Assembly: GCA_031264145.1 (NCBI GenBank)
Contig: JAISEK010000132.1
Span: forward strand, 1 to 40,927
Length of the DNA stretch: 40,927 nt
Source of the DNA: Deltaproteobacteria bacterium
Lineage (GTDB): Bacteria > Desulfobacterota > Desulfarculia > Adiutricales > Adiutricaceae
Reading direction: 5' to 3'
The stretch's first letter is position 1; the number at the start of each line of letters is the position of its first letter. Below, piece after piece: positions 11 to 32,484 of this stretch. The translations under genes and the position numbers were made by a program. The notes under the pieces are model-generated. The model had not been told where the DNA came from, ran no database searches, and saw only the letters and a list, made by a program, of their open reading frames with translations.

Positions 11-907
11 ATGGTCGAGTTCCCAACTACGCAGCTAGGTTTCGAGCAGGCCTTCAGCACCGAAGAAGCTTGCATTGACTACCTAATCCAGCTGAGGTGG
101 CCTGAGGGTGTCAAGTGCCCCCATTGCCAAAGCGAAAAACTATGGCGGTCAGGTCATCTCCTCCAGTGTTCCGTTTGTGGCCGCCAAACAAGGGTCATGG
201 CGGGAACCATCTTCCAGGATACGCATCTTCCTCTTATGATATGGTACAGAGCCATTTGGATGATCATGAATCAGAAATATGGCGCCAACGCAATGGACCT
301 CATGCGACTACTTGGCATAAGTCATAAAACAGCCTGGAACCTATTGCACAAGCTAAGAAGGGCTATGGTCAGGCCAGATCGCGACAAGCTATATGGCGTT
401 GTCGAGGTAGACGAGACATATATCGGCGGTTCTGAAGAAGGCGTCCATGGTCGACAGATTGTCCACAAGGATATTGCTGCTATTGCCGTCGAAGTGAGAG
501 GGCAGAAGCTTGGTCGTATTAGGATGAGGCTTGTGGAAACAGCTGGACCTGACGCACTTATTCCTTTCATTAAAAATAATATTGAGTCTGGAAGCCAGGT
601 TATAACTGATGGATGGGCCAGCTACTCAAATCCTCAGTCGTTAGGATTAGATCATATAATAAAGACAAGTTCATCAAATAAAAAGGCATTACCAAATGTT
701 CATCTAATTATTTCCTTATTTAAACGCTGGATACTGGGTACATTTCAGGGTAGTATAAGTAAGAAACAATTTGATTACTACTTAGACGAGTTCGTGTTTC
801 GTTTTAACCATCGTACATCAAGCACCAGAGTCAAGTTATTTCAACGCCTAATGGAGCAAGCTGTTATAACATCACCGGTAACAAGATTTAATATTAAAGA
901 TATATAG
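11..907 (+). CDS. IS1595-family (ISXO2-like) transposase
   Basis: A DDE-type transposase of the IS1595/ISXO2 group, which catalyses cut-and-paste or copy-out movement of its own element. An N-terminal zinc ribbon is visible (C36-P-H-C39 and C53-S-V-C56), followed by a helix-turn-helix-like stretch near residues 95-115 (MRLLGISHKTAWNLLHKL). The catalytic core starts with VDETYIGG (D134), continues with ITDGWASY (D200), and ends with the family's H231...FKRW and YLDEFVFRFNHR block (E260). At 298 aa it is full length and uninterrupted, so it may be active. The gene lies at the window edge; the left end of the element is outside, and I could not identify terminal inverted repeats or a target duplication. 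Its base composition is lower in GC than the flanking recombination genes, as expected for a mobile gene. Confidence 0.9.
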   Translation: MVEFPTTQLGFEQAFSTEEACIDYLIQLRWPEGVKCPHCQSEKLWRSGHLLQCSVCGRQTRVMAGTIFQDTHLPLMIWYRAIWMIMNQKYGANAMDLMRLLGISHKTAWNLLHKLRRAMVRPDRDKLYGVVEVDETYIGGSEEGVHGRQIVHKDIAAIAVEVRGQKLGRIRMRLVETAGPDALIPFIKNNIESGSQVITDGWASYSNPQSLGLDHIIKTSSSNKKALPNVHLIISLFKRWILGTFQGSISKKQFDYYLDEFVFRFNHRTSSTRVKLFQRLMEQAVITSPVTRFNIKDI

Positions 908-13825: not shown

Positions 13826-14665
13826 CTATCTGGCCTGGGCCGGCGGGTCTTGACCGTTGACCGCCAGGATGTTGGCACCCCTTATGGCCAACTCGCGGGC
13901 GTTTATCTCATCCTCTATAATCCTGTTGTTCTTCGTCAGTAGATCCAGGGTATTGTCGGTCCTCTTTGCCGCCGCGCTGAAGGTCGTCTGCTTCTTCTTG
14001 AACTGGCTCACCGTGTTCTTGGGGGCCCTGTCGGCCGTCCTGGCCTGCTCGAGCCTCACGACCTCGTCGAAGGTCTCGGTGTGCTTAACGTAATCGGCCT
14101 TGTATATCTCGAGGACCCTGATGGCGTCGTTGTTGCCGTCCCGGATCTCCTTGAGGCGCACCAGCATCTCCTCCTTGGACATGCCGCCCTTCTGGTAGGC
14201 CTTCTTGAGGGCCTTGTAGGAGCTCGAGTAGCAGTCGCAGGTCGCCTTGGCGAACTTCACGGCCACGTTGAGGTTGTTGGTCTCGGCGTCGATGGCCGTG
14301 TTGTAGGCCGCGAAGCGTTCCTGGAGCGCCTTTTCCTGGAGAGAGCTGGAGATCAGATAGGATCCGGCCAGGCCGGCCACGAGGCCCACGGCGGTGCCTA
14401 TGACCGCCCCCCTGGCGGTCCCCGAGGTGGCCAGGCCGACCACCAGCCCAGTGGCGGCCCCGACCAGGGCGCCAGTCAGGACGTCCTTCCTCATCTTCTC
14501 GTCGGCCGACCTGAGATCGGCCACGGGCTGGTAACAGTCGGGATAGTACTGGACCTTGACCGTCTGGGGTCCGTACTTGGAGCCGCAGCCGGCCGAGAGG
14601 AGCAGGGAGGCCACCAGGATCAGGACCAGTGGGGCGGACTTGCGTTCAAGGAATTTGCTCTTCAT
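13826..14665 (-). CDS. Glycine-zipper outer-membrane lipoprotein, candidate TagQ-like
   Basis: A 279-aa lipoprotein. The N-terminus has a basic start, a hydrophobic core (PLVLILVASLLL) and the lipobox SAGC with C27. After a short segment containing YYPDCYQPVADLR comes a glycine zipper at about residues 62-103 (GALVGAATGLVVGLA and GAVIGTAVGLVAGLAG), which could insert in or cross a membrane. The rest is charged and helical, with two more cysteines (CDC), and looks coiled-coil. I chose ATG 14665, with GGAGG upstream, over the longer frame to 14824. It lies downstream of the hybrid kinase at the end of the signalling cluster. TagQ, the outer-membrane lipoprotein of the PpkA pathway, has similar size and location, so it may be the TagQ counterpart; this is inference. 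Confidence 0.75.
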   Translation of the reverse strand: MKSKFLERKSAPLVLILVASLLLSAGCGSKYGPQTVKVQYYPDCYQPVADLRSADEKMRKDVLTGALVGAATGLVVGLATSGTARGAVIGTAVGLVAGLAGSYLISSSLQEKALQERFAAYNTAIDAETNNLNVAVKFAKATCDCYSSSYKALKKAYQKGGMSKEEMLVRLKEIRDGNNDAIRVLEIYKADYVKHTETFDEVVRLEQARTADRAPKNTVSQFKKKQTTFSAAAKRTDNTLDLLTKNNRIIEDEINARELAIRGANILAVNGQDPPAQAR

Positions 14666-14954: not shown

Positions 14955-17828
14955 TCAGTTGGCCAGGCGGTCCTGCGGCCTTGGGCCGTGGCCCCCTGCC
15001 AGGAGGTCCCCCTCCAGCAGGCGGTCGATCTGCTCGATGGCCTCCTCGTACTCGACCTCCTGGAAGTGGCCCCAGACCTCGTCCAGGGACAGGCGCAGCC
15101 ACTGGGGGATGGGCCGGCCCCGGATACGGCTGATGGCCCTGTCGATGCCCCCGGCGTCGGTCTCGGCGAAGGCCTTCCTCAGGACGGCCAGTTCCTGGCC
15201 GATGAGCTCCGGGCTGGCCTGACCATCCCCTTCCCCGCCCTCGCTCTCGGCCTGGCCGACGAAGGCCGAGAGATCCTCGATGGCCTCGTTCAGCTCCCGC
15301 AGGAGGTTCTCGACGTTCTCGGCCACGAAGCCCAGATCGCCCGAGACCACGGCTGATTCTATGGAGAGCGCCCTGTCGGCCAGGGGCCCGGCCCCGATGG
15401 CCCCGCAGCTGCCCTTCAGGGCGTGGGCCAGGGCGGCCAGGGCCTTGCCGTCGTCGCGGTGCCAGGCGCTCCTCACTGCCCCGGGCAGGTCCTTGACGTC
15501 GCTGAGGAAGAACCTCATGGTCCTCAGGTAGGCGGGGAGGCTTTCGCCCGACCTGGATAGCCCCAGAGAGGTATCGATGCCCCTGAGGGGCGGGAACCCG
15601 TGGCGGGCCCTGGCCGAGGGATCCTTGGCCGCCGGGTGCCCGGCCTTGGCCAGGCGGTCGCCGGGTAGCCACCTGAGGAGGATGGAGTTGAGCCTGGCCG
15701 TGTCGATGGGCTTGGGGAGGAAGTCGCTCATGCCCGAGGAGGCAAAGAACTCGTCCATGCCGGCCAGGGCGTTGGCCGTCATGGCCACGATGGGCAGATC
15801 CTTGAAGCGCTGCCCCTCCAGGTCCCTGATGGCCCTGGTGGCCTCCAGGCCGTCCATGTCGTCCATCATGTGGTCCATGAAGACGATGTCGAACTCGTTG
15901 CGCCGGACCAGCTCCACCGCCTCCAGGCCGCCGGAGCAGGTGACCACCCTCATGAGGTAGGGCTGCAGGAGGCCCTTCATGACCATGAGGTTGGTCTGGA
16001 GATCGTCGACCACCAGGGCCGTGGCCCCGGGGGCGGTGAACCTGACCAGGGCCAGGGAGGACTGGGCCGCGTCCGTCTCGCTCTCGGCGTCGTTGAGAAA
16101 CTCGGCCAGGGGCCGCGAGTAAAGCGGCAGGAAGAGGCAGCGGACGTCCTCCAGCCCGAAGGGGTGGACGTCCTCGGCCGTCACGGCCACCCTGGCCCCG
16201 AACGACTTGGCGGCCATCTCGGCCTTGAGGAGGGAATGGAGGGAGACCGGCAGGATCGCGTGGGAGAACCCGCCCTCGCCCAGGGCCCGCATGAACGAGT
16301 CGCGCCCGTCGACCATCAGGAAGGGGACCCCCAGGTCCTTCAGGGCCGAGTCGATGGAGGCGGCGATGACGTTCCGCCGCTCGTAGACCAGGACCCTCTT
16401 GGCCGCGGCGTCGACGACGGCCGCCATGGGGGCCTCGTCCTCGACCTTCTGGGGCAGCTCAACGGTGAAGACGCTGCCCTGGCCGAACTGGCTGCTGACC
16501 CGGATGCCGCCGCCCATGAGCTGGCAGAGGTGCTTGACGATGGCCAGGCCCAGGCCCGTGCCCTGGATGTTGCGGTGGGACTTGTAGTCCAGCTGGACGT
16601 ACTCGCCGAAGAGGTTCTGGACGTCGCCGGGCTTGATGCCGATGCCCGTGTCCCTGACCTCGGCCCTGAGCGCCATCTCCCCCTTCCTGGTCCTCGCGGC
16701 GTCCAGGGAAAGGGAGATGGTGCCCGAGTTGGTGTACTTGATGGCGTTGGAGAGGAGATTCAGGAGGACCTGCCTGACCCTGGTGGCGTCACCCTGCAGG
16801 CGGTCGGGCGTCCTGGCGGCCACGGAGACCACGAAGCGGACCGGCTTCTCCATCAGCCTGACGTTGACCAGGTTGACCAGATCGTTGACCAGGAGGCTCA
16901 GACGGTACGACGACTCGACGATCTCGAACTTTCCGGACTCTATCTTGGACAGATCCAGGATGTCGTTGATTATTGACAAGAGATTGGCGGCGGCCTGCTT
17001 TATGTTCCTGGCGTAGGTATGGGCCTGGGCCGGCATGTTGTCGGAAAGGCGCAGAAGGAGCTCGCTTATGCCGACTATGGCGTTCATGGGCGTCCTGATC
17101 TCGTGGCTTATGCGGGCCAGGAACAGGGTCTTGCCCCTGTTGGCCTGGTTGGCGTTCCGGGCCTCCCTGCCCAGAAGGAGGACGGCAAGGAGGCCGCTGG
17201 CCAGGACCAGGATGCCGGAAAATACCTGGAGCCAGGTCACGGCCGCCATGCGGCGCCTGGCCGACAGGAGCTGGCCGTCCCACGCGTCCACCCCGGCCAG
17301 GGCCACCACCCGGCCGCCTTGGCCGCGGACCGGGGCGAAGCCGCTCAGGAGGCGGTCCCGGCCCTGGACGGGACGCCCGCTGGCCGACGAGGCCGGCTTG
17401 CCCAGGAAGGCCGCCCGGATGGCCTGGTCCCTGGACAGCTGGGCCGGCGGGTCGGCCTGGTTGGGGAAGCCGCCAGCGTGGCCGCTGTCAGCGATATACT
17501 GGATGTCGTCGCCGACGATCCTGAGGAAGTAGGCCCTCATGACGCCCATCTGCTCGGCGAACATGGCCAGCTCGTTATTTGGGACCGGATATGGCGGGGC
17601 CTCGACGCCTTCCGCCGGGACGAGGCCGACCAGCTCGCGGCCATCGGCCATGGCCGAGAGACTCTCGGCCACGGACCTCAGCCTCTCGAGCTGCCTATCC
17701 TCGTCACCGCGCAGATAGCCGTTTATGAACGAACGGTTGTACGCCGTCAGGGAAAGCATCAGTGATAGCGAAAGAATGAACAGGGCACTACACAGGGCGA
17801 ATAACCTGGTATGTCTGGCGGGGAACAT
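14955..17828 (-). CDS. Hybrid sensor histidine kinase (TM-sensor-TM, HisKA, HATPase, pseudo-REC, REC, HPt)
   Basis: A 957-aa inner-membrane phosphorelay kinase. Residues 10-30 and about 197-220 are membrane helices enclosing a periplasmic sensor of some 165 residues. HisKA carries the phosphoacceptor H242 in RISHEIRTPMNAIVG. The ATPase domain has N361 (LLNLLSNAIKYT), DTGIGIKP and GTGLGLAI. Residues 478-580 look like a receiver fold without the acidic pocket, a pseudo-receiver. A true receiver follows (VVDD near 607, phosphoacceptor D652 in VFMDHMMDD, K706 in LPKPID). The C-terminal HPt has H802 in AHALKGSCGA. All relay steps are therefore in one protein, so a separate response regulator is expected; the nearby REC-HD-GYP protein is the obvious candidate. 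Confidence 0.92.
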   Translation of the reverse strand: MFPARHTRLFALCSALFILSLSLMLSLTAYNRSFINGYLRGDEDRQLERLRSVAESLSAMADGRELVGLVPAEGVEAPPYPVPNNELAMFAEQMGVMRAYFLRIVGDDIQYIADSGHAGGFPNQADPPAQLSRDQAIRAAFLGKPASSASGRPVQGRDRLLSGFAPVRGQGGRVVALAGVDAWDGQLLSARRRMAAVTWLQVFSGILVLASGLLAVLLLGREARNANQANRGKTLFLARISHEIRTPMNAIVGISELLLRLSDNMPAQAHTYARNIKQAAANLLSIINDILDLSKIESGKFEIVESSYRLSLLVNDLVNLVNVRLMEKPVRFVVSVAARTPDRLQGDATRVRQVLLNLLSNAIKYTNSGTISLSLDAARTRKGEMALRAEVRDTGIGIKPGDVQNLFGEYVQLDYKSHRNIQGTGLGLAIVKHLCQLMGGGIRVSSQFGQGSVFTVELPQKVEDEAPMAAVVDAAAKRVLVYERRNVIAASIDSALKDLGVPFLMVDGRDSFMRALGEGGFSHAILPVSLHSLLKAEMAAKSFGARVAVTAEDVHPFGLEDVRCLFLPLYSRPLAEFLNDAESETDAAQSSLALVRFTAPGATALVVDDLQTNLMVMKGLLQPYLMRVVTCSGGLEAVELVRRNEFDIVFMDHMMDDMDGLEATRAIRDLEGQRFKDLPIVAMTANALAGMDEFFASSGMSDFLPKPIDTARLNSILLRWLPGDRLAKAGHPAAKDPSARARHGFPPLRGIDTSLGLSRSGESLPAYLRTMRFFLSDVKDLPGAVRSAWHRDDGKALAALAHALKGSCGAIGAGPLADRALSIESAVVSGDLGFVAENVENLLRELNEAIEDLSAFVGQAESEGGEGDGQASPELIGQELAVLRKAFAETDAGGIDRAISRIRGRPIPQWLRLSLDEVWGHFQEVEYEEAIEQIDRLLEGDLLAGGHGPRPQDRLAN

Positions 17829-18380: not shown

Positions 18381-18698
18381 TCATACTTCCCGGCCAGTCC
18401 TTAAAATCTCCTTGATAAAAGGATTGTCATCATATAAATCCGAGGTCGGAAATCCCCAAGGCTCAATGTCAATCCCCTTATATTTTCTTGTCAAGCGGAA
18501 TAGGCGAGTCATAATGTCCACCGTGTCCTGGTTTTCAAAACTGCTGGAAAAAAAGCACAAGTCAATATCGCTATGTTCGGTAGCGGTTCCCTTGGCATAG
18601 GAGCCGAAAAGATAAGCGTGGTCAATTGGCATGGCGTTTCTCACGTCAGCCACATAGTCGCCCACGATCTTGTTTAGGGTTTCATCGTCAAAAGCCAT
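18381..18698 (-). CDS. MNT-type nucleotidyltransferase (HEPN/MNT module)
   Basis: A 105-aa minimal nucleotidyltransferase. The catalytic signature FGSYAKGTA followed by HSDIDL gives the G-S motif (G32, S33) and the two metal-binding aspartates (D44, D46); a third acidic position is likely in GIDIEPWG. In HEPN/MNT pairs this partner acts as antitoxin, in characterised cases by adenylylating the HEPN toxin. The gene overlaps the HEPN gene's end by 25 bases, so the two are translationally coupled. Lower GC than the signalling genes on both sides suggests the pair was inserted into the cluster. Confidence 0.85.
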   Translation of the reverse strand: MAFDDETLNKIVGDYVADVRNAMPIDHAYLFGSYAKGTATEHSDIDLCFFSSSFENQDTVDIMTRLFRLTRKYKGIDIEPWGFPTSDLYDDNPFIKEILRTGREV

Positions 18699-19075
18699 GC
18701 GAAAGCCTCCTTTGACCGCTCAAGATAATCCGTGGCGACCCGCTCGCTCAGGCGTTCGTTTAATTTCTGCTTGAAGTTAGCGTAACGCCCATTCAAATAA
18801 TGCGATGTCAGGCTCTCAAATAAGTTGTAGCGTTCATCTGTCACCGGCTCTGGCAAAAGTTTTTCAATTTTTTCAATAAGACCACTGATATTATGTGTAT
18901 ATGGCACATTATCATCAATATAAAGCGTATAAAGTCCCTTGGAGAGCTTTTCAATCGCCTGCTGGCAGGTGAAAACGACATAAAGCCAACGACCGGCCTT
19001 CAGCATGGCTTCGGCAGTAACTAGGTCATACTCCGCCGTGTCAAGCCAGTATTCATATTTCTCCTGAGCATCCAT
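18674..19075 (-). CDS. HEPN-domain protein (HEPN/MNT module)
   Basis: A 133-aa all-helical HEPN protein, first gene of the pair. Family features are the N-terminal YEYWLDTAEYDLVTAEAML, the helix FTCQQAIEKLSKGLY, PYTHNISGLI and the later SHYLNGRYANF. The canonical RNase motif R-x(4-6)-H is not apparent, so whether it is an active RNase is open. Start: ATG 19075 has GGGGTG six bases upstream; a GTG at 19084 in the same frame is possible. The gene order HEPN then MNT is standard for this toxin-antitoxin class. Confidence 0.82.
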   Translation of the reverse strand: MDAQEKYEYWLDTAEYDLVTAEAMLKAGRWLYVVFTCQQAIEKLSKGLYTLYIDDNVPYTHNISGLIEKIEKLLPEPVTDERYNLFESLTSHYLNGRYANFKQKLNERLSERVATDYLERSKEAFAWLLTMKP

Positions 19076-19084
19076 CCTTATCAC

Positions 19085-19313: not shown

Positions 19314-19880
19314 CTAGGAACCGCCCTCCTCGGCCAGGCGGAACCATTTCTCGGCCTCGGCCGAGTCCCTGGCCACGCCCTGCCCGTTCTCGTACATGTC
19401 GCCCAGCCTGAAGAGGGCCTCGGGGTAGCCCTGCTCGGCCGAGAGCCGGTAAAGCCTGAGGGCCTGGGACAGGTCCTGGCCCACGCCCCTGCCCTCCTCA
19501 TAGAGGAGTCCGAGGCCGTACTGGGCCTCCGGCTGGCCCTGGCCGGCCGAGAGGGCCAGCCACCGGGCCGCCTCTACGTGGTCCTGCCCCACGCCCTCGC
19601 CGGTGGCGAACATGTCCCCGACGAGGAACTGGAAGAACGGGTCGCCGCCCTCGGCCAGGGGCCTGGCCAGCCCGTAGGCCCTGGCGGGATCCCTCTCCTC
19701 CTCGCTTCCGAGGTAGCATCTGAGGGCCAGCTCATAGGTGGCCTCGTAGTCGCCCTTTTCGGCCAACCGGGACAGATCGCCAAGGTCGGGCCCGCTTTCG
19801 GGCCCGCCCGGCTCCTGGGCCAGGGCCCAGGGGGCCGCCAGAAGGAAACAGGCCAAGGCCGCCAAGAAAAGTCGTCTCAT
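19314..19880 (-). CDS. Secreted Sel1-repeat protein
   Basis: A 188-aa exported protein with Sel1-like (TPR-related) repeats, which normally serve as protein-protein scaffolds in signalling. The start at ATG 19880 gives a signal peptide (MRRLFLAALACFLLAAPWA, cleavage likely at ALA-Q). Three to four repeats follow, each with a G-x-G-V and a DxxxAxxW/L-like pattern: GDMFATGEGVGQDHVEAARW, LLYEEGRGVGQDLSQALRL and DMYENGQGVARDSAEAEKW. The same frame is open upstream to 20558, but that part is a shadow of the response-regulator gene. It follows the REC-HD-GYP gene by 89 bases in the same orientation and probably belongs to the same transcript. Confidence 0.85.
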   Translation of the reverse strand: MRRLFLAALACFLLAAPWALAQEPGGPESGPDLGDLSRLAEKGDYEATYELALRCYLGSEEERDPARAYGLARPLAEGGDPFFQFLVGDMFATGEGVGQDHVEAARWLALSAGQGQPEAQYGLGLLYEEGRGVGQDLSQALRLYRLSAEQGYPEALFRLGDMYENGQGVARDSAEAEKWFRLAEEGGS

Positions 19881-21176: not shown

Positions 21177-22946
21177 TCAGATGGCGTTCTCCAGGATGTT
21201 GCCGACGCTGATCATGTCCGTCTTGCCCGAGCGCCAGCGCCCCAGGTCCCGGCTGACCTGCTGGAAGGCGGCGCGCATGGCCCGGGCGTAGATGTCGTCG
21301 CCCTTGATGTCCTGCTCGATGAGCCTGAGGATCCCGTTGACCGCCAGGCGGTCGAAGCCGGCATGCCGTCCCAGGAGATCCAGGTAGTGGCCGAACTCCC
21401 TGGAGATGGCCTGGTCGAAGCCCTCGGCCTGATTCTTGAGCCGATCGTGCTTCTTCTGGTTGTCGGCCACCAGATCCTGGATCCGCCTAAGCTGCTCGCG
21501 CCCGGCCGAGCCCCTCAGCGACTCCAGGAGCTCCAGGTCGGCCTCGACCATCTGGGCGTCAGCCAGGGCGTCCTGTCGCCTTTTGGCCGTGTTGTGCATG
21601 GAGTATACAACAAACATAAGGCTGCGGCAATTGGTCCTGATGGCCATCTGTTCCTTGTTGGCGTTCATCAGGTCCAAGTCCTTTAAGTCATACTTTATTG
21701 ACTCAAAGAGCTTCCTTTGGTCCTCGCCCGTGGCCGTGGAGATGAGAAGCTCGACCTTCTCGATGGGAGAGAGGGACTCGACGCCAGCGAACCTCGCCTC
21801 GTCGACTTCCAGCGTTTCCGGGGCCGGGCCCTGGCCAGGCCCCGGGGCGGCCCAGATGGACCTGAGCTCCTCCAGCCTGGCGCCGGGGCCGACGGCCACG
21901 GGCGCCGAGACCAGGAGCCTGAGGCCCAGGTCCTTCGAGAGGGTCGGGCCGTTCTCGTAGTATTGGGCCACCTCGATCCTCTTGCCAGGCAGGACGCCAT
22001 CGTAGCTGTCGCCGAAGGAGCCGCCCTTGCGGACGAAGCCGCCGGCGGAACCGTGGAGGCGGCCGTCGATGGTCATCCGGAAAGGGCTGGAGGTCATCTC
22101 GGCCACGTTGCCCGCGGTGTCGTACAGGCCCAGGGGATTCGGCTTCCATCGGCCGATGGCCCCCGGCTCGACCTCGGGGGTCTGGCCGGGGGACTGGAAA
22201 AGCCCATACTCCCTGGGGTTGGCCTTGTCGGGCAGGTCGAAGAAGGGCTGGGTGCTGATGTCGTCGGTGCTGGCCTTGTGGCCGCCCCTGGCCGCATACT
22301 CCCACTCCTCCTCGGTCGGGAGGCGCACCAGCCCGACAGCCTCAGGGTCGTCGGGGAAGGACGGCAGGGCCTCGGGCCGGTTGCCGGCCAGCCAGTCCAT
22401 GTACCGGCCGGCGAACTCGCGGGCCTGGAAGACGGAAATCTCGGCCTTGGGCCGGGCCGATCTCTCGGAGAGGGCGCACTTCCCGTCGCCCATGACGGAG
22501 TCCCACTGGGCCTCGGAGACCTCGTACTTGCCGATCAGGTAAACCTGGTCCTGGCTGACCCCCTCGAGGGCCCTGGCGGCCACGGCGCGCATGGGCTCCG
22601 GGAGGTTCTCCAGGGACAGGCCCGAGCCAAGGAACACCCGGTGGCGGTTGGCCAGGAAGGCGTCGTCCGAGTCGGCGTCGGAGCCCAGGAAGGTCTCGAA
22701 ATCCGCGACCTTCCCCGAGACCGGGAGCGCGACCACCCTGAAGGCCATGGACAGGCCGCACGGCATGGGCAGGAACAGGTCAAGGTCGTCCGGCTTGGGG
22801 TTCTGGACGCTTTCGGGGCTCACCGTCCCCTTCTTGGCTATGGCGGCCCTGGCCGGGCCGGGAAACGCCGCGAGGAGCGCCAGGGCCAATGAGGCCAGCA
22901 ATATCAGGGCCAGCTTGTCGGGAACATGCGTCTTCTCGCGGTCCAT
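21177..22946 (-). CDS. TagR-like secreted protein with FGE-sulfatase fold (copy 2)
   Basis: A 589-aa periplasmic protein built on the formylglycine-generating-enzyme (SUMF1) fold. The start at ATG 22946 gives a signal peptide (LALILLASLALALLAAF, cleavage after ARA); AAGGA lies upstream. The N-terminal block LPMPCGLSMAFRVVALPV is shared with its neighbour. Fold markers are YLIGKYEVSEAQW, RLPTEEEWEYAARGG, NPLGLYDTAGNVAEM, RKGGSF and DLGLRLLVS. The catalytic cysteines expected after the GGS motif in true enzymes are missing, so it is probably a ligand-binding or partner-binding protein, as TagR is in the PpkA pathway. The C-terminal 200 residues are helical, likely coiled-coil. Paralogue of the gene just upstream. 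Confidence 0.82.
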   Translation of the reverse strand: MDREKTHVPDKLALILLASLALALLAAFPGPARAAIAKKGTVSPESVQNPKPDDLDLFLPMPCGLSMAFRVVALPVSGKVADFETFLGSDADSDDAFLANRHRVFLGSGLSLENLPEPMRAVAARALEGVSQDQVYLIGKYEVSEAQWDSVMGDGKCALSERSARPKAEISVFQAREFAGRYMDWLAGNRPEALPSFPDDPEAVGLVRLPTEEEWEYAARGGHKASTDDISTQPFFDLPDKANPREYGLFQSPGQTPEVEPGAIGRWKPNPLGLYDTAGNVAEMTSSPFRMTIDGRLHGSAGGFVRKGGSFGDSYDGVLPGKRIEVAQYYENGPTLSKDLGLRLLVSAPVAVGPGARLEELRSIWAAPGPGQGPAPETLEVDEARFAGVESLSPIEKVELLISTATGEDQRKLFESIKYDLKDLDLMNANKEQMAIRTNCRSLMFVVYSMHNTAKRRQDALADAQMVEADLELLESLRGSAGREQLRRIQDLVADNQKKHDRLKNQAEGFDQAISREFGHYLDLLGRHAGFDRLAVNGILRLIEQDIKGDDIYARAMRAAFQQVSRDLGRWRSGKTDMISVGNILENAI

Positions 22947-23052: not shown

Positions 23053-24858
23053 TCACTTGGGCAGGGGCACGGCCACGGCCTCCAGCGTTATCAGGTGGCC
23101 GCGGTTGGACAGGATATCCCCTATGTCCCTCTTGACCACGTTGAGGGCGTTGGACATGCCCCGGCTGTAGCTGTCCTGGCCCTTGAAGCTCTCGGAGGCG
23201 GCATTGACCTCCCTGGCGAGCAATTCGACGTCCAGGCCGGTCAGGTTCTGCAGTGAGGCCTTGTAGTAGGCGAACTGTCTGGCCATGGCCACCTCCAGGT
23301 CGACCATGTCGCCCTCCAGCTCGGCCACCTTTCCCCTGGACTGGGCCACCTCCTCGGCAATCGCCGCCCGCTCGGCTTTGCTCCCGGTCAGGTCCAGGGC
23401 CTTCTCCTTGTGCTCGATCAGGGACTCCTCCCGGCGGATGGAGTCGTGGACCCTGACTCGCCTCAGGCTGGTGTCCCTGATGCCGTAGGCGGCGTACAGC
23501 GCGGCGTGGAAGCCGCTCTCGGCCTGGCTGGCCAGGTCGGCGGCCTTGAGCTGGTCGAACTCGGCGAAGTCGTCCAGGAGCGAGGCCAGGGCCGCCTTCT
23601 GTCCCTCGCTCTCCAGGAGGGGCGCCATGGCCCCTATCCTCGCGGTGGCCCCCAGGGACATGATGGCCTCAAGGCTCATGGGGCCGGCGGCCGGGGGCTC
23701 GCCCGATGGGGCCTGGGGCCCGCCTGCCGTCCCCTCCCTGGCCTCCAGTTCCCTGAACTCGCCACTGAGGACCGACAACCGTCCGCTGCCGGGGGTATTC
23801 GGGGCCGACAGGGCCAGCCTGAGGCCCAGATCAGGGGATCTGGTCGCGCCGGTCCTGGAGTGGCTGGGCAGTTCCCGGCGCTTGCCGGGCAGGATGTCCC
23901 CTCCGCCGTCGCGGAAGCCGCCGCCCTTCACGAGCAGGCCCCCCTCCGGGCCGTGGAGGCGCCGATCGTACGACAGCCTGTAGTTGTCGAGGATCAGCTC
24001 GGCCACGTTGCCGGCGGTGTCATGGAGCCCCAGCGGGTTGGGGGCCAGGCTGCCGATTGGCAGCGGCCCCTCCCTGGGGCCGGACTCGTCCGAGAAGAAG
24101 GCGAACTGGCTGAGGGACATCTGGCCTGGGTTGGGGAACAACGGCTCGAGGTCCCGTTCCGCCGCGGCGACCATGTGGCCGCCCCTGGCCGCGTATTCCC
24201 ACTCGGCCTCGGTCGGAAGCCGGATGATGCCGACGTACTTGGGATCCGGGGTGAAGGAGAGGAGGGCCGGGCGATCGTTCCGGGCCAGCCAGGCCTCGTA
24301 CCTGGACACGAAGTCGTCAACCTCGGTCCTGGAGAAGCCGGTCTTGGGCATCTCCGAGCCTGGCCCCAGGACGCCGCAGCCCTCCATGACCGCCTGCCAC
24401 TGCCCGACGCTCACCTCGTACTTGCCCATGAGGAACAGCTGGTCCCCGGCCCTGTCCCCCAGGCTGGCGGCCGCCTTGTCCCTGTAGGGCGGGTTCATGT
24501 TCTCCAGCCTGAAGGACGAGGCCAGGAAGGACTCGAAGGGCCGGTCGACGAACCCCATCGCGTTCGGGCCGGAGAAGCCCTGCCGGACCTCAAGATCGCC
24601 AAGATAGCCGGCCGCCGGGACGGCCACCGCCCTGAAGGCCATCCTGAGTCCGCAGGGCATGGGTAGCTCCAGGTCCGCCTGGTCCGGCCTGGGGTTGAAG
24701 AAGGCCGGGTCTGGGGAATCCTGGGCCAGGGCTGGCCCGGGGGCGGCCGACATGAGAAGGGCCAGGGACAGGAGAGAGGCCATGAGCATGGCCGCAATCC
24801 TCACGGGCCAGCCGGCCCGAACAGCCAAAATAGTGGACACTTTGCCGTTTACCCCCAT
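23053..24858 (-). CDS. TagR-like secreted protein with FGE-sulfatase fold (copy 1)
   Basis: A 601-aa paralogue of the next gene, 106 bases upstream of it. Signal peptide at residues 18-45 (IAAMLMASLLSLALLMSAA, cleavage at ALA-Q). The shared block LPMPCGLRMAFRAVAVP is followed by LMGKYEVSVGQWQAVM, RLPTEAEWEYAARGG, NPLGLHDTAGNVAEL, VKGGGFRDG and PDLGLRLALS. No catalytic cysteine pair is seen in the segment after KGGGF. The C-terminus (about 430-601) is a long helical region. In Pseudomonas, TagR, with this fold, acts in the periplasm upstream of PpkA; by family this pair may do the same for the PpkA-like ectodomain encoded here. The start ATG 24858 lacks a strong ribosome site; internal ATGs at the hydrophobic core are alternatives. 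Confidence 0.82.
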   Translation of the reverse strand: MGVNGKVSTILAVRAGWPVRIAAMLMASLLSLALLMSAAPGPALAQDSPDPAFFNPRPDQADLELPMPCGLRMAFRAVAVPAAGYLGDLEVRQGFSGPNAMGFVDRPFESFLASSFRLENMNPPYRDKAAASLGDRAGDQLFLMGKYEVSVGQWQAVMEGCGVLGPGSEMPKTGFSRTEVDDFVSRYEAWLARNDRPALLSFTPDPKYVGIIRLPTEAEWEYAARGGHMVAAAERDLEPLFPNPGQMSLSQFAFFSDESGPREGPLPIGSLAPNPLGLHDTAGNVAELILDNYRLSYDRRLHGPEGGLLVKGGGFRDGGGDILPGKRRELPSHSRTGATRSPDLGLRLALSAPNTPGSGRLSVLSGEFRELEAREGTAGGPQAPSGEPPAAGPMSLEAIMSLGATARIGAMAPLLESEGQKAALASLLDDFAEFDQLKAADLASQAESGFHAALYAAYGIRDTSLRRVRVHDSIRREESLIEHKEKALDLTGSKAERAAIAEEVAQSRGKVAELEGDMVDLEVAMARQFAYYKASLQNLTGLDVELLAREVNAASESFKGQDSYSRGMSNALNVVKRDIGDILSNRGHLITLEAVAVPLPK

Positions 24859-25366: not shown

Positions 25367-26329
25367 CTATTGTTGGCTGGCCAGGCCAGACAGGACGTGC
25401 CCGACGAGCCAGCCGACGGTCTCGGCCGCGTCGGCGATATCGGCGGCCTCGACGTCGAAGTAATTGTCCGCGCCGTTGAACGAGAGGGACGAGATGGTCC
25501 TGTAGGCCTCCTCGGCAGCGCCATGGTCCAGGCGCCCGGCGGGAGTCTTGACGTGGATTGGCAATATGACCACGCCCTTGCTTGCGGCCAGCAAGCCCAG
25601 GCTTTCCGGGGTGTGGGCCGTGGAATTGCGCTCGTCGGCCGTGTCCAGCGGGCCGTCGTCGGCGATGAGAATGATGAGCTTGGCGTCATAGGGGTTGTCG
25701 GGCCAGCGAAGATCATTCAAGGCCGTTTCCAGCCCGGCCAGGGGATCCTTGCCGAAGGAGGGCCCGGGCGCCCCGGCCTCGCCGACCCCGGCCATGGCCG
25801 ACTCGAGGGCCCGGCGGCCAGAGGCCTTCCTGAAGTCGGAGACAATCCTGGTGACCTCCCCATGGCCGGGGGTGGCACCTGCGCCGCCGAAGGCCACCAC
25901 GGCCAGGGAAACCCGGTCCTCCCGGCCCTCCTGGACGACGCGGTCGAAAAATCCCCGCATGACGTCCTGGAGCCGCCTGATCAAAGGGGCCATGGGGAAG
26001 CCCGCGTCGATGACGAGGGCCACGTGGAACCGGTCCGGCGACGCCTGGGCGGCGTCGGCCGCCACCAGGACGCCCCGGTCGGCCTGGACGGCTGCCGTTG
26101 GCCATGTCTTCCCGGGACCATTGCCGGAAAGGGGGCCGGATTCCCCCTGGCCAGGCGGGGGCAAGGCACCGGCGTCGGGGGCCTGGCCATCCGGGACGAA
26201 AACTGGCGGATGGCCGCGGGGGGCAAGAACCGGCCCGGCCAGGGCGCATCCGGCCCCGGGACAGGCGAGAAGAGCGAGAAGGGCCAGCGGGAAAAGGACG
26301 GCGAACGGGAAGGCCCTATGCCATTTCAT
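25367..26329 (-). CDS. Secreted vWA-domain protein with degenerate MIDAS (short PpkA-ectodomain paralogue)
   Basis: A 320-aa protein from ATG 26329 with a hydrophobic signal (AVLFPLALLALLAC). LLAC at residue 23 could be a lipobox, so it may be a lipoprotein. The vWA domain (about residues 100-310) is clearly related to that of the 767-aa protein 2.4 kb upstream: shared phrases include EDRVSLAVVAF, IVSDFRKAS, LNDLRWPD, HTPESLGLLA and EEAYRTISSLSF. The metal site is destroyed: the DxTxS of the paralogue is VIDAGFP here (D108, G110, P112). It also lacks the paralogue's SH3-like and C-terminal helical domains. It looks like a duplicate specialised for metal-independent binding or on its way to decay. 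Confidence 0.75.
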   Translation of the reverse strand: MKWHRAFPFAVLFPLALLALLACPGAGCALAGPVLAPRGHPPVFVPDGQAPDAGALPPPGQGESGPLSGNGPGKTWPTAAVQADRGVLVAADAAQASPDRFHVALVIDAGFPMAPLIRRLQDVMRGFFDRVVQEGREDRVSLAVVAFGGAGATPGHGEVTRIVSDFRKASGRRALESAMAGVGEAGAPGPSFGKDPLAGLETALNDLRWPDNPYDAKLIILIADDGPLDTADERNSTAHTPESLGLLAASKGVVILPIHVKTPAGRLDHGAAEEAYRTISSLSFNGADNYFDVEAADIADAAETVGWLVGHVLSGLASQQ

Positions 26330-26559: not shown

Positions 26560-27750
26560 CTAGAGGTCGCGCATGCCCTCAGAGGGCTCGATGTCGGCCA
26601 GGCTGGTGTAGGCGCAGCCCGAGGCCGCGGTCATGAAGAGGATGGCCAGGATGGCGGCGGCGGCCAGCTTGCGGGCCGACAGGGAGCAGACCGCCTCCCC
26701 CGCCCCCAGGCTGTCGCCGAAATAGGCGTTGAGCGTCTTGGCCAGGAGCAGGAACAGGGCCTCGGCGCCGATGGTGGCCAGGAGGCCGGTCAGGGCCGAC
26801 TGGCACGCGGTGAAGACCAGGAGCCGGAACTTGCTGATGCCCAGAAGGGCCAGGACGGACAGCGACCGGCGCATCTTGGCCACCTGGTCGATGGCCCCGC
26901 TGGCCGCCGAGGCGAAGGCCCCGCCGCCGACGACGACGAAGAGGGCCAGGAAGACGACGGTGAAGGAGTGGTCCAGGTCCTGGACCAGCCTGATCTGGGC
27001 CGCCTGGGTAACTGCGTTGACCTGGAAGTCCAGGAGAAAGACCCGCAGCCTCTCGACGCCGTCGAGGTCCCTCGAGTAGAGCCTGAAGCGGGAGAACGGG
27101 GCCTGCTCAAGGGGCCTCTCGGCGCCGTCCCAGCCCAGCTCGGGGATGGCGAAGCCGCTGCGGTAGTCCTCGGTCATGCGCATCAGGTCAAGGGAGCAGA
27201 AGACGTTGTAGCCGGGCGTGACGTGGCGCGGGATGACCCCCAGGACCTCTAGGGGCAGCCTGGCGTACTCGTCGCGGCCCTGGCGCCGCCGCCCGACCCT
27301 GCCTTCCAGCCTGGAGCCGGCCTGGAGGCCCAGCTTCTCGGCCACCCCCTGGGAGACGAAGATCTCGCCCACCGCCAGCGGCCGGTCCAGGGCACTGGCC
27401 TCGTAGGCCTCCCGCAGCAGGGGATCGCCCGGGGCGGTGGCCGAGAGGTCGCCGTCAAAGGAAGGGAAGCCCTCGGCCATGAGGTTCATGGTCGCCGAGA
27501 TGGCCCTGGTCTCGGGGATGATGAAGGCCGCGTCGGGGTGGCCGGCCACCTCCTCGAAGAACTCGGGCTTGAAGGACTGGGTGCCGATGGGCGAGAGCTC
27601 CAGGTTGCGGGGATTGTCCAGGAGCCGGCGGGTAAGGGTCCCGACTATCCCGTCCCTGATGCCCAGGACGGTGAGCATCGGCACCATGAAGGCGATCATG
27701 GAAAAGACGGAGCAGAACGAATACAGCCAGTCGTGCCTGTAGCGCCTCAT
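26560..27750 (-). CDS. TagS-like ABC permease (MacB/FtsX type)
   Basis: A 396-aa inner-membrane permease. A first membrane helix (about residues 11-31) is followed by a large periplasmic domain (32-250), then three helices near 265-295, 310-345 and 360-380, the FtsX/MacB layout. The N-terminal run RRYRHDW, followed by the helix and NPRNLELSPIG, matches what I recall of TagS. TagS with TagT forms a transporter-like complex that acts upstream of PpkA rather than moving a known substrate. It is preceded by the ATPase gene. The ATG at 27750 may not be the true start: the frame is open a further 11 codons (TILKLA just before the ATG), so a non-ATG start is possible. Confidence 0.8.
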   Translation of the reverse strand: MRRYRHDWLYSFCSVFSMIAFMVPMLTVLGIRDGIVGTLTRRLLDNPRNLELSPIGTQSFKPEFFEEVAGHPDAAFIIPETRAISATMNLMAEGFPSFDGDLSATAPGDPLLREAYEASALDRPLAVGEIFVSQGVAEKLGLQAGSRLEGRVGRRRQGRDEYARLPLEVLGVIPRHVTPGYNVFCSLDLMRMTEDYRSGFAIPELGWDGAERPLEQAPFSRFRLYSRDLDGVERLRVFLLDFQVNAVTQAAQIRLVQDLDHSFTVVFLALFVVVGGGAFASAASGAIDQVAKMRRSLSVLALLGISKFRLLVFTACQSALTGLLATIGAEALFLLLAKTLNAYFGDSLGAGEAVCSLSARKLAAAAILAILFMTAASGCAYTSLADIEPSEGMRDL

Positions 27751-27862: not shown

Positions 27863-28708
27863 TCAGTGCATCAGGCCCTGGCCCGGGGCAGCGACGGGGG
27901 GAAGCCCCCCTTTGGCCAGGTCGACGATGGGCGACACCCTGGCCTCGATGGGCTGGCCCTCCTGCCCCGGCGAGCAGCTCACGCGCCAGACCTTGAACTG
28001 GCCGGTCCTGACGCGGCCGTGCTCGTGGGTCGAGACGACCAGGCTGCTGTCGCGGCAGAGCTCCAGGAGGAGCGCGAAGACCCTGTCGGCCGTCGGGGGG
28101 TCGAGCGAGGCGGTGGGCTCGTCGGCCAGGACCAGGCTGGGGCCGTGGATGAGGGCCCTGGCGATGGCGCAGCGCTGGCGCTCGCCGACGGAAATCTGGC
28201 TGGGCAGCTTGCCGAGGAGGTGCGCTATGCCCAGGGCCGCCGACAGATCCCCCAGGCGCCCCCTCTTCTCGGCCCTTGGGAACCCTGGCTTCAGGTCGGC
28301 CGGGAGGGTGATGTTGTCGGCCACGGACAGGAACGGGAGGAGCCCGCCTGTCTGCATTATGTAGCCGAGCTCGGATCTTCTCAGGGTCTCGAAGACGGCA
28401 TAGCGGCCCCTCCGCCAGATGCCCCAGAGGTCGTGCCACTTGGCCTGGCCCACGGGCCTGAAGGAGAAGTCGTCGGCCGAGTCGGGCCTGAGGATCATGG
28501 CGATCATGTCCAGGAGGGTGCTCTTGCCGCTTCCCGAGTCGCCGATGAGGGCCAGATGCTCCCCCTGGCCGACGGTAAGCCCATCGACCCTCAGGCGGTA
28601 GCCTGGCCCGCCCTGGCGGGTCTTGACCAGGTTCTGGCACCTGAGGATGGCGTCGTCCCGTTTTTCCGGGCCCCGTCCCTGGACTGGCTGGCTCTCTGGT
28701 ACGTTCAT
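27863..28708 (-). CDS. TagT-like ABC ATPase
   Basis: A 281-aa ATP-binding subunit of the LolD/MacB type. Motifs: Walker A GDSGSGKST (near residue 57), Q-loop YIMQTGG, signature ISVGERQR (V in place of the usual G at position 3), Walker B LVLADEPTASLD and the switch histidine in VSTHEHGR. It has a longer C-terminal tail than usual (about 50 residues) with no recognised domain. Its partner is the permease 112 bases downstream. It comes 64 bases after the PpkA-like ectodomain gene, so ATPase, permease and sensor are probably one transcript. The order differs from Pseudomonas, where tagQRST precede ppkA. Confidence 0.88.
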   Translation of the reverse strand: MNVPESQPVQGRGPEKRDDAILRCQNLVKTRQGGPGYRLRVDGLTVGQGEHLALIGDSGSGKSTLLDMIAMILRPDSADDFSFRPVGQAKWHDLWGIWRRGRYAVFETLRRSELGYIMQTGGLLPFLSVADNITLPADLKPGFPRAEKRGRLGDLSAALGIAHLLGKLPSQISVGERQRCAIARALIHGPSLVLADEPTASLDPPTADRVFALLLELCRDSSLVVSTHEHGRVRTGQFKVWRVSCSPGQEGQPIEARVSPIVDLAKGGLPPVAAPGQGLMH

Positions 28709-28772: not shown

Positions 28773-31076
28773 CTAGGGCAGCGCGTTCAGGGGGACCCTG
28801 TAGAGCCAGTCGCCCTGGTCGACCCCGGAGAATTTGGCCCACTTGTTGTCCTTGTCGAACTGGTCGTAGAGCTCGATCTTGGACTTCAGCACCCTCACGA
28901 AGTTGTCCTGCTCTATGGCGCTCATGTTGTACCAGTCGGTCTCGGTCTTGCCCATGATGACGCTCTGGTACGGAAGGTCGGCGAGGAACTCGCCCATGAC
29001 GCCCATGTCGCCCAGCGTGGTCTCAGGCTTGAGGGCGAATGACTGGGGATCGTTGACGATCTGGGCCGAGGCCGACAGGATGCTCTGGAAGAAGTCCCTG
29101 GACTGGGTGTCCAGGGCCTGGTCGGCCTTCTCCATGATGACCCGCAGCTGGCGGCTAAGCGAGCTCAGCTGGTTCTTGGTTAGGAGGACGGCCACCTCCA
29201 CCGTGGGCACCTCGGAGCTCTCCTGGCCCGGCAACCCCTCCAGGCTGGAAAGGTCCTTGTCGGCTATCCAGGAACGGACCACCTGGGGGGCCTTGACCTC
29301 GTTGACCGAGCCCAGGTAGTTGAGCCTGATGGAATAGCCCAGCCGCTGGCCAATCTGGGCCGCCTTGATGACGGCCGGGTCGGTGTTGTTGGGCCGCGAC
29401 GAGACTATGGTCCCCTTGGGGGCCGGCACCCGTCCGCCGCCCGACTCCTCGGCTATCTGATCGGGCACCAGTATGGCGCCGGACGTCCCGCCGGGACCGC
29501 GGACATTCCCGCCCTCCGGCTGCCGGAGGGGCTCCGCCACCCGCTCGGCGAACCGCTCCCCCTCGGTCGAGGGGTCGAGGTCCTGGGCGTAGGGGCCGTC
29601 GCTGACGTCGATGCCGAAGATCTGGTTCTCCAGGTTGAGCATGACTGTCGAGGCGGTCGTGCCGAAGGTCTCCGAGGCGTACACGTTGTCATCGGTGGAG
29701 ATGTCGATGTAGTTGTCCATGTCGGCGAACGAGATGGAGGAGATGGTCCGGTAGGCCTCCTCGGCCGCGGCATGGTTTTTGCGGCCGGCGCGCGTCTTGA
29801 CATGGATGGGCACTATGGCGATGCCCCTGCTTTCGGCCAGGTGCCCAAGGCTCTCCGGGGTATGCCAGGTGGAATTGTAGCCGTCCCAGGAGGGCAGGGG
29901 GCCGGCGTCGGTGATGAGGATGATGATCTTCCCGTCCTCCCCGCTGTCCGGCCACCTCAGGTCATTTATGGCCATGTCCAGCCCGGCCAGGGAATCCTCG
30001 CTGAAGGAGTGGGTGGAGACCTTGGCCTCGGTGACCCGGCCCAGGGCCGACTCGAAGGACCGGCGGTCACTGGCCTTCCTGAAGTTGGAGACGATGGTGG
30101 AGACGTACCCGAGAGCGGGGGTGGCCTTGGTGCTGTTGCGGAAGGCCACCACGGCCAGGGAGACGCGGTCCTCCTGGCCCTCCTGGATGATGCGGTCGTA
30201 GAAATCCCTGGTTATGTCCAGGCACTGCTCGATGTAGGGGGCCATGGAGATGGTCGTGTCGATGACGAAGGCCACGTACACCTGGTTGCCGCTGGGCCCC
30301 TGCCCCGCGTCGTTGGCCGCGACCAGGACGCCCCCGTCGGCCTGGCCGGCGGACGGGGCCATCCCCGGCCCGTCCTGGGCCAGACGGTCGGCGCTCCCGT
30401 CCCGCGACAGGGCCGAGGACGCTCCGTCGGAGCCGGGGTCGATGGAGGCCACCTCCAGGAGCTTGACCGAGTCGAAGGTCTGGTCATCGTAGCCGAAAAT
30501 GGGGATGATGTAGAAATGGTCCTTGGGGACGGTGCCCTTCTCGAAATCGGGCTCCATGGCCACGACCGGGAAGTCGGCCGGGGGCTTGGAGCTGGTCTGC
30601 AGAAAACCCTTGAACTGCCTCTCAATCCTGTCCAGGGCCTCATTGACGTTCGGCTCGTTGCCGACGGCCAGGAGGTCGTCGTAGCTCTTGAAGAACAACA
30701 TGGGCTTGCGGCCCTCGGCCTGCGTGAAGAGCAGGACCATGGCCTTGTTGAACTCGGAGGTGATGTCGGCCCTCAGCCAGGCCTTGTCCCTGCCAACCGA
30801 GTTGGGGGCGCACAGGAGCCAGTCCAGCCCGTTGACCTCCCTCCGCTCGTACACGTAGAGGACGGTGAAGGGGTCGAGGGCGTCGCCCCGCGGGGCGTCG
30901 GGCTCCGAGTGCCAGAAGGCGTCAGGGTGGACGATGACCCGCTGGTATATGGTCGTCTTGTTGGGCACCAGCAGGGGGGGCTCGGCCAGGGCGCGCCCGG
31001 CGGCGAGCAGGGGGAGGAGAGCCAGGATGGCGGCCAGGGGAAAACCGGCGAATGGGGCAATTTTATGTTTTCTCAT
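28773..31076 (-). CDS. Secreted PpkA-ectodomain-like protein (SH3-like, vWA, helical C-terminus), no kinase
   Basis: A 767-aa exported protein, from ATG 31076 with a signal peptide (residues 1-31, cleavage at ALA-E). Residues 35-135 form an SH3-like domain (TTIYQRVIVHPDAFW, LYVYERREVNGLDWLL, KAWLRADI). A linker leads to a vWA domain (about 266-480) with an intact MIDAS: VIDTTISMAPYI (D273, T275, S277), then VAFRNSTKATPALGYVS, LAGLDMAINDLRW and IILITDAG. The C-terminus (about 640-767) is helical and ends YRVPLNALP. This domain order, and these phrases, match the periplasmic half of the type VI secretion kinase PpkA as I recall it. There is no kinase domain, no transmembrane anchor and no cytoplasmic part, so it must signal through a partner. 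Confidence 0.82.
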   Translation of the reverse strand: MRKHKIAPFAGFPLAAILALLPLLAAGRALAEPPLLVPNKTTIYQRVIVHPDAFWHSEPDAPRGDALDPFTVLYVYERREVNGLDWLLCAPNSVGRDKAWLRADITSEFNKAMVLLFTQAEGRKPMLFFKSYDDLLAVGNEPNVNEALDRIERQFKGFLQTSSKPPADFPVVAMEPDFEKGTVPKDHFYIIPIFGYDDQTFDSVKLLEVASIDPGSDGASSALSRDGSADRLAQDGPGMAPSAGQADGGVLVAANDAGQGPSGNQVYVAFVIDTTISMAPYIEQCLDITRDFYDRIIQEGQEDRVSLAVVAFRNSTKATPALGYVSTIVSNFRKASDRRSFESALGRVTEAKVSTHSFSEDSLAGLDMAINDLRWPDSGEDGKIIILITDAGPLPSWDGYNSTWHTPESLGHLAESRGIAIVPIHVKTRAGRKNHAAAEEAYRTISSISFADMDNYIDISTDDNVYASETFGTTASTVMLNLENQIFGIDVSDGPYAQDLDPSTEGERFAERVAEPLRQPEGGNVRGPGGTSGAILVPDQIAEESGGGRVPAPKGTIVSSRPNNTDPAVIKAAQIGQRLGYSIRLNYLGSVNEVKAPQVVRSWIADKDLSSLEGLPGQESSEVPTVEVAVLLTKNQLSSLSRQLRVIMEKADQALDTQSRDFFQSILSASAQIVNDPQSFALKPETTLGDMGVMGEFLADLPYQSVIMGKTETDWYNMSAIEQDNFVRVLKSKIELYDQFDKDNKWAKFSGVDQGDWLYRVPLNALP

Positions 31077-31242
31077 GTCAAGTGACCCGAAGTGGACGCC
31101 CGGCCATGGCCGGGGGGATAAGGATCGACTCTGGCTCCGATCCATCATGGTGGCCCTGGCCCATGCTGGCCAGGCGCGAGACTTGCCTGCCCTGCCCCTG
31201 CGGCTTTAACCCAGGGCCGGGGAGCCCTGGACCGCCGGCCGG

Positions 31243-32484
31243 TCAGTCCGTGGAGAGTACCCTCTCGAATTCCTCGATGCCGTCAACTCCCTTGGCCGTG
31301 GCCCCATTGGCCTTGACCCAGCCGGAGAGACGCCTCAGGTTGGCGACGGCCTCCGGGAGATCGCCGGCGGACTTATACTCGTCGTAGGCGTACATGACGT
31401 TGGGGGTGACGCCTCCCTTTGGCCCGTCATCCGCCGGGTCGAAGAAGAGGCCCAGCCTGTAGTGGTACCTGGGATCCCTCTTGGCCAGGACCCTGGCCAC
31501 CAGGAAGACCTGCTCCTCGGACCCGGGGGCCGTCTCCAGCAGGGACAGGGCCGCCTCGAGATCGGAGGTGCTGGCCGGCGGGTTGGCCCGCAGGAGGGCC
31601 CTGACCTCGTCCCTGGAAGGGACCTGGCCGGCGGGGGCCGCCGGCAGGCCGCCGAAGGAATTCCCCTCGGCCGGGGGGGAGGCGACGGCGCCGCTGACGC
31701 CGAGCGAGTTTTTCCCTCTGGCCGGGAAGGAAGCGTCCTGCCCCTCGGCCGGGGACGGCTCGGCGGGGACATTAAGCGTCGCCCCGCGGACATCGACGGG
31801 GACGCCCTCGGACGAGCCGGGCACCGTCACCGGGACCGGCCCGTCCGGCTCGTCCCTGGTCTGTCCCGTGGGTTCGGCCGGCTTAGGTTCCAACGGCCCG
31901 CCCTGTGCCGGTCCTGCCGGTTCAACCGGCGCAGGCGCCATCGGTACGGTCGTTCCAGGCTCCAAAGGCTCGGCCAAAGTCGCTTTTACAGGTTCTGCCG
32001 GCTCGCCCTGTGCCGGTCCTGTCGGTTCAACCGACGCAGGCTCCACAGGCATCACCGGCTTCGATGCCACCGGCTCGGGCGGAGTCGATTCCGCAGGCGC
32101 GGCCGTCTCGCCCTGTTTTTGTCCGTCCGGCTCGGTGGGGCCAAGGTTGGGCATGGCTATTGCGGGGACGGATTGCGCCGGGTCGATTTGGTCAAGGCCA
32201 TCGGAACGCGGCAAGTCGCTTGGATTCCCTGGCTCCTCCGAGGCAACGTCTTGGGGAGCCCTTTGGCTGGCGTCCGGTTCATCGTCAAAGTCGAACTTAT
32301 CCGTATCTCCAAAAAGAGACAGAAAACCACCATGGTCCGACGGGCCTTCGTCTTCCTGGGCTTGCGCCTTGAAGGCGAGAGAGACGAAAACGGCCAGCGG
32401 AAGAATCCAGGCCAAGGCCAGCAGGCCTCGATGGCCGCAGGGGCGGTTTTTTGGTGAGTGGCCGGCGAGTCTAAGGGCGTCCAT
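31243..32484 (-). CDS. Secreted proline-rich protein with Sel1/TPR-like C-terminus
   Basis: A 413-aa exported protein, first gene of the signalling cluster. ATG 32484 is preceded by AGGAAGG at good spacing; the longer frame to 32571 lacks one. A hydrophobic signal (LLALAWILPLAVFVSLAF) ends at QA-QED. Residues about 60-290 are low-complexity and rich in proline, glutamate and alanine, with imperfect repeats such as VEPTGPAQGEPAEP and VEPAGPAQGGPLEP; such a stretch could span the periplasm as an extended tether. The last 110 residues look folded and Sel1/TPR-like (YHYRLGLFFDPADDG, NVMYAYDEYKSAGDL). I know no named family. It lies 166 bases before the PpkA-like gene in the same orientation. Confidence 0.75.
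   Translation of the reverse strand: MDALRLAGHSPKNRPCGHRGLLALAWILPLAVFVSLAFKAQAQEDEGPSDHGGFLSLFGDTDKFDFDDEPDASQRAPQDVASEEPGNPSDLPRSDGLDQIDPAQSVPAIAMPNLGPTEPDGQKQGETAAPAESTPPEPVASKPVMPVEPASVEPTGPAQGEPAEPVKATLAEPLEPGTTVPMAPAPVEPAGPAQGGPLEPKPAEPTGQTRDEPDGPVPVTVPGSSEGVPVDVRGATLNVPAEPSPAEGQDASFPARGKNSLGVSGAVASPPAEGNSFGGLPAAPAGQVPSRDEVRALLRANPPASTSDLEAALSLLETAPGSEEQVFLVARVLAKRDPRYHYRLGLFFDPADDGPKGGVTPNVMYAYDEYKSAGDLPEAVANLRRLSGWVKANGATAKGVDGIEEFERVLSTD

Follow-up and report, generated by a model that had tools for sequence, protein, structure and literature searches.

What the sensor region of a kinase does when it is encoded without the kinase, and through which partner it could then signal, is the question raised by a locus on contig JAISEK010000132.1 of a Deltaproteobacteria bacterium (GenBank assembly GCA_031264145.1), of which the stretch of 40,927 nucleotides analysed here is referred to as the window. 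Accounts of threonine phosphorylation in the T6SS usually treat the pathway as a T6SS-specific device. A first-pass annotation of the window proposed that one gene encodes the whole periplasmic region of PpkA, the kinase of this pathway, as a free protein with a signal peptide followed by SH3-like, vWA and helical domains, which would have to bind another membrane protein to signal, or else act as a receptor or decoy.

The open reading frame concerned lies on the minus strand at 28773–31148 (791 aa), its natural start being the ATG at 31076 (Met25), which gives a gene of 28773–31076 and a precursor of 767 aa. Initiation at Met25 yields MRKHKIAPFAGFPLAAILALLPLLAAGRALA followed by EPPLL, a standard signal peptide (30984–31076, minus strand; ORF residues 25–55) with the predicted cut between ALA and EPP, leaving a mature protein of 736 aa. 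The signal peptide is the only hydrophobic segment and a transmembrane (TM) helix of the PpkA type is absent; no Pfam or NCBIfam model, kinase domains included, matched the protein at E 0.01, and no relative was found among PDB sequences. The kinase domain and second membrane segment are thus lacking, as had been proposed. An AlphaFold2 model built from 60 homologues (mean pLDDT 79, pTM 0.79) consists of three folded parts and two disordered linkers, the mature protein comprising a beta-rich region (residues 1–187), a vWA domain (about 232–458) and a mainly helical region (534–736). The first of these (30423–30983), modelled alone at pLDDT 88, is a small beta barrel with an alpha/beta extension, whose Foldseek neighbors are mostly SH3, SH3b and GW cell-wall structures; since even the best match is weak (E 0.04), the domain is likely rather than proven to be SH3-like. 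The middle domain (29610–30290) was identified as a vWA fold by Foldseek matches to vWA and integrin structures (E 1e-5 to 1e-8) and carries an intact MIDAS motif, DTTIS (D297-T-T-I-S301; 30246–30260), of which the D, the second T and the S are invariant in the 60-sequence alignment. The C-terminal domain (28776–29384) is largely helical in the model. The proposed domain order was therefore recovered in the sequence and the model, with the SH3-like part graded as likely.

The relationship to PpkA was examined with a family profile in 99 Pseudomonas genomes, where it detected two kinds of protein, of about 665–690 aa and about 970–1290 aa (open-frame lengths), both covered over essentially the whole profile. 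The long proteins inspected contain a Ser/Thr kinase (PF00069, E 4.6e-48) and one TM helix, followed by the ectodomain. The three domains of the window protein aligned separately and in the same order to these kinase-fused forms, with (database size set to 1e8 for all E-values) 36–39% aa identity for the N-terminal domain (E 1e-28 to 1e-33), 30–39% for the vWA domain (E 1e-30 to 1e-37) and 39–40% for the C-terminal domain (E 1e-36 to 1e-38). Specifically, the fused PpkA of locus L171 gave 39% (E 8e-33), 34% (E 2e-33) and 40% (E 5e-38), respectively. The match starts shortly past the single TM helix of PpkA with the common opening PLLMxGKKTLFQRV. As each domain matches the PpkA ectodomain separately, a resemblance limited to the vWA domain is ruled out, and the domain-by-domain homology together with the signal peptide bears out the view of a whole PpkA ectodomain encoded as a free secreted protein. 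As the first-pass annotation had argued, a protein in this free state needs another membrane protein to relay any signal; no evidence pointed to the suggested decoy role. By sequence comparison, the protein is established as a periplasmic member of the PpkA-ectodomain family within a TagQRST-type envelope operon, and it falls outside PpkA itself in having no Hanks-type kinase domain, TM helix or genetic linkage to a T6SS.

The implied rarity of such a free ectodomain did not hold. Homologues were present in 38 of 60 related genomes and in five of the six other genomes of the genus of the window. When genome contigs were scanned with a single sequence no relative appeared; an alignment scan gave 409, of which the best 80 were all kinase-less. 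A homologue was also found in 125 plasmid records, mainly from Klebsiella, and 117 of these matches covered at least 80% of the protein. Two trees, with 73 and 79 sequences, each placed the kinase-fused forms in one clade (support 100, one change needed), the free form filling the rest. The kinase fusion is therefore likely, on these phylogenies, to be the derived state, and only likely because the trees are unrooted and the fused forms were sampled almost only from Pseudomonas. Within Pseudomonas (L153, L161–L189), free and fused forms were found together in none of the 99 genomes (about 11 with the free and about 30 with the fused form; chance about 0.014, kinship ignored).

In the window the gene is part of a row of minus-strand genes. 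Directly downstream are a TagT-like ABC ATPase (27863–28708; PF00005, E 6e-24) and a TagS-like ABC permease (26560–27750), assigned from its TM segments and its conserved position beside TagT, which is itself conserved in position. These are followed by two TagR-like periplasmic proteins of the FGE-sulfatase fold (23053–24858 and 21177–22946; PF03781, E 1.6e-20 each) and, further on, by a TagQ-like Gly-zipper lipoprotein (13826–14665) with the lipobox LLLSAGC. The TagQ assignment rests on weak similarity, with Gly-zipper Pfam matches below cut-off and a 35–36% match to the gene directly after TagR in Pseudomonas PpkA clusters; with this reservation all four components of a TagQRST set occur in one row. 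Between TagS and the first TagR lies a second secreted copy (25367–26329) that comprises the vWA domain only (55% identity to the main vWA over 261 aa) and has lost the MIDAS, with DAGFP for DTTIS; genomes G001 and G006 also have a second vWA copy, placed upstream of the main one. The genes from the second TagR to the TagQ-like gene encode an HD-GYP regulator, directly followed by a secreted Sel1-repeat protein (19317–19880, minus strand; PF08238, E 3.9e-26), a HEPN/nucleotidyltransferase pair of toxin-antitoxin type (18381–19084, minus strand) and a hybrid histidine kinase. The contig starts with an IS1595-family transposase (11–907, plus strand).

Upstream of the vWA gene, an ATG at 32484 behind AGGAAGG opens a gene (31243–32484, minus strand) for a protein with a signal peptide or signal anchor, a long Pro-rich linker and a C-terminal Sel1-like domain. 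Pfam Sel1 matches to this partner were below cut-off, and an HMM built from partner C-termini alone recovered it at E 8e-14 and the C-terminus of the split kinase of Tistrella mobilis pTM1 at E 1.4e-10, making the Sel1-like domain the counterpart of the Tistrella kinase ectodomain. In the T6SS cluster of Tistrella mobilis, a phosphatase and a separate kinase with a TM helix and a Sel1-like C-terminal end are followed, in this order, by a free vWA protein, TagT, TagS and TagR. The order Sel1 partner-vWA-TagT-TagS-TagR is conserved in Pseudomonadota, Thermodesulfobacteriota and Ignavibacteriota, usually as part of the larger operon SrfA-SrfB-SrfC-Sel1 partner-vWA-TagT-TagS-TagR. The window protein shares all features of this free PpkA-ectodomain family: the three ectodomain parts, a signal peptide, no kinase, the Sel1 partner upstream and TagT-TagS-TagR downstream.

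In Srf operons the partner has an N-terminal cytosolic domain of about 180 residues, a TM segment and the Sel1 domain; in the genus of the window this cytosolic domain is absent. Every one of the 83 Srf-linked loci had an N-terminal stretch of 105–431 aa, against no more than 50 aa in eight of the 12 Srf-less loci with flanking sequence, these locus counts being partly redundant as some were the same contigs fetched twice. The Tistrella kinase accounts for one of the four exceptions with a longer N-terminus, and the genomes of two others (L047 and L071) have SrfB elsewhere. In the sampled relatives, the long form was present in 17 of 17 SrfB-bearing genomes and the short form in five of six without SrfB, the remaining genome (G025) having retained the long form with SrfB not detected. 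A tree test of the link found two independent concordant changes and one not differing. Together these counts are suggestive of a tie between the cytosolic domain of the partner and the presence of SrfBC, a pattern rather than proof because of the duplicate contigs and the only two independent concordant changes.

A first SrfB search of the window genome was negative but had no positive control match. A profile search that found SrfB in 22 of 60 relatives, including most other genera of the family, gave no match in any of the seven genomes of the genus (the window genome and six congeners). No SrfC match was found within the window, so that the locus, having neither SrfB nor SrfC, does not qualify as an Srf operon. 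Apart from a 60-aa piece of TssC on another contig, profile searches found no T6SS in the window genome; three congeners have a full TssC. These absences rest on profile searches. As the window genome is a draft, 96% complete in 198 contigs, the assembly may have missed SrfBC, T6SS genes or a kinase partner, or these may lie elsewhere.

Taking these observations together, we consider that the vWA protein may, with about an even chance, be the periplasmic hub of a TagQRST-type sensor, with the Sel1 partner and TagTS as its anchors at the inner membrane and its output most likely passing through TagTS. The state of the outer envelope would be reported by the TagQ-like lipoprotein and the TagR-like proteins, which the hub would bind, probably via its metal site, while the Sel1 partner and the TagTS ABC transporter would dock it on the inner membrane. 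In relatives the output would be borne by the docked Sel1 protein, as a cytosolic domain beside SrfB/SrfC or, in Tistrella, a Ser/Thr kinase; in Pseudomonas the hub would be fused directly to the kinase as PpkA. The loss of the output domain and SrfB in the genus of the window leaves TagT as the sole cytosolic component of the conserved set, and the output would therefore most likely run through the ABC transporter and not a kinase, unless the set is an envelope machine without signalling. More broadly, and with somewhat less confidence, a free vWA hub with a Sel1 membrane partner could be the original envelope sensor and PpkA a derived fusion, bacteria plugging in varied cytosolic outputs (an SrfBC-linked domain, a split kinase, a fused kinase or, in the genus of the window, none).

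The loss of the cytosolic output domain from the operon also fits a transport or envelope-maintenance machine in which a MacB/Lol-like TagTS would move or handle lipoproteins or effectors without any signalling, the vWA, Sel1 and TagR proteins serving as periplasmic adaptors; the nearest ATPase models were those of exporters, LolD among them, each scoring far under its cut-off. The homologous set of P. aeruginosa, however, regulates PpkA and T6SS assembly (PMC6657622), and we regard such a machine as unlikely. It appears more doubtful that the genome holds a PpkA split over two loci, with the free ectodomain acting on a Ser/Thr kinase from another part of the genome: Tistrella offers a precedent of a separate kinase with a free vWA protein, and five kinase matches in the window genome exceed the Pfam cut-off, but the four kinases examined lie on different contigs and are combined with FHA, TPR or WD40 domains, and neither a second full ectodomain nor a fused PpkA was found in the genome. 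Loci L005 and L006 (contigs C99 and C86 of genome G000) each encode an FHA-kinase protein and a WD40 kinase (one also with TPR), with a PP2C-like match beside the C99 kinases.

The first-pass annotation had pointed to the hybrid histidine kinase (14955–17828) as a partner. In such a pairing its periplasmic domain would bind the vWA protein, and the output would be of two-component or HD-GYP type. The kinase is on the same strand within 11 kb and has two TM segments flanking a 160-residue periplasmic domain, yet in 75 homologous loci where 3 kb or more of sequence follows TagR, neither this kinase nor the HD-GYP regulator was ever found there on the same strand, and in the congeneric genome G003 the TagQ-like gene directly follows the second TagR with no histidine kinase between. 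As neither gene is conserved after TagR, the histidine kinase is disfavored as the natural partner, and this synteny led us to drop both it and the HD-GYP regulator, leaving this pairing very improbable. The adjacent Sel1 partner, which the first-pass annotation had not named and whose Sel1-like domain corresponds to the ectodomain of the Tistrella kinase, is together with TagTS the likelier membrane link; in G003 the Sel1 partner is absent directly upstream of the vWA gene. Finally, SrfB and nearly all TssC are missing from the genome and the neighboring vWA copy has lost its MIDAS, as might be expected of a decaying remnant of an Srf or T6SS regulator with no present function; against this, intact homologues in five of the six other genomes of the genus retain the invariant residues and the operon order, and decay seems scarcely credible. 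The reading preferred here is a periplasmic hub held at the inner membrane by TagTS together with the Sel1 partner.

On this reading, the PpkA ectodomain and TagQRST would form a general envelope-sensing module, mostly without a kinase and often without a T6SS. The labels ‘ppkA’ and ‘serine/threonine protein kinase’ on kinase-less genes, as in some Klebsiella plasmid records, can be corrected, and the Sel1 protein becomes a concrete candidate for the partner through which such a sensor reaches the cytosol, in the poorly understood SrfABC system as well. The searchable literature (subscription papers lay outside the search) held no statement that the protein lacks a kinase and none on the Sel1 partner.

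Several known systems resemble the locus. In P. aeruginosa, TagQ recruits TagR, TagR activates PpkA, and full activity further requires TagS and TagT (PMC6657622; PMC6082577); the vWA sensor domain of PpkA has been described (PMC3224232). PpkA shares with the window protein the order of SH3-like, vWA and C-terminal domains and the accompanying TagT, TagS, TagR and TagQ genes, but carries a Ser/Thr kinase at its N-terminus and a TM helix where the window protein has a signal peptide and no kinase, and PppA and T6SS are absent from the window locus. RtkS of Serratia marcescens, compared by description, is likewise free in the periplasm and belongs to a PpkA pathway, although it is only about 330 aa long and the PpkA that it activates has another type of ectodomain (PMC6082577). 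An earlier study of host-associated Deltaproteobacteria, most of which had no T6SS, reported a gene neighborhood of srfB, srfC, tagQRST and ‘ppkA’ (PMC3608642, 2013). Gene set, broad bacterial group and the noted T6SS absence agree with the window, whereas the gene was treated there as the kinase PpkA, the homologues here are kinase-less and the window lacks srfBC. T6SS-control-like genes also adjoin srfABC in Xenorhabdus (PMC6950479). The free vWA proteins of Srf operons in Enterobacter sp. 638 and on Klebsiella plasmids, annotated ‘vWA domain-containing protein’, have the same three domains, are secreted and are encoded between a Sel1 partner and TagT exactly as in the window, the window operon differing in having no SrfA, SrfB or SrfC and a Sel1 partner without the cytosolic domain.
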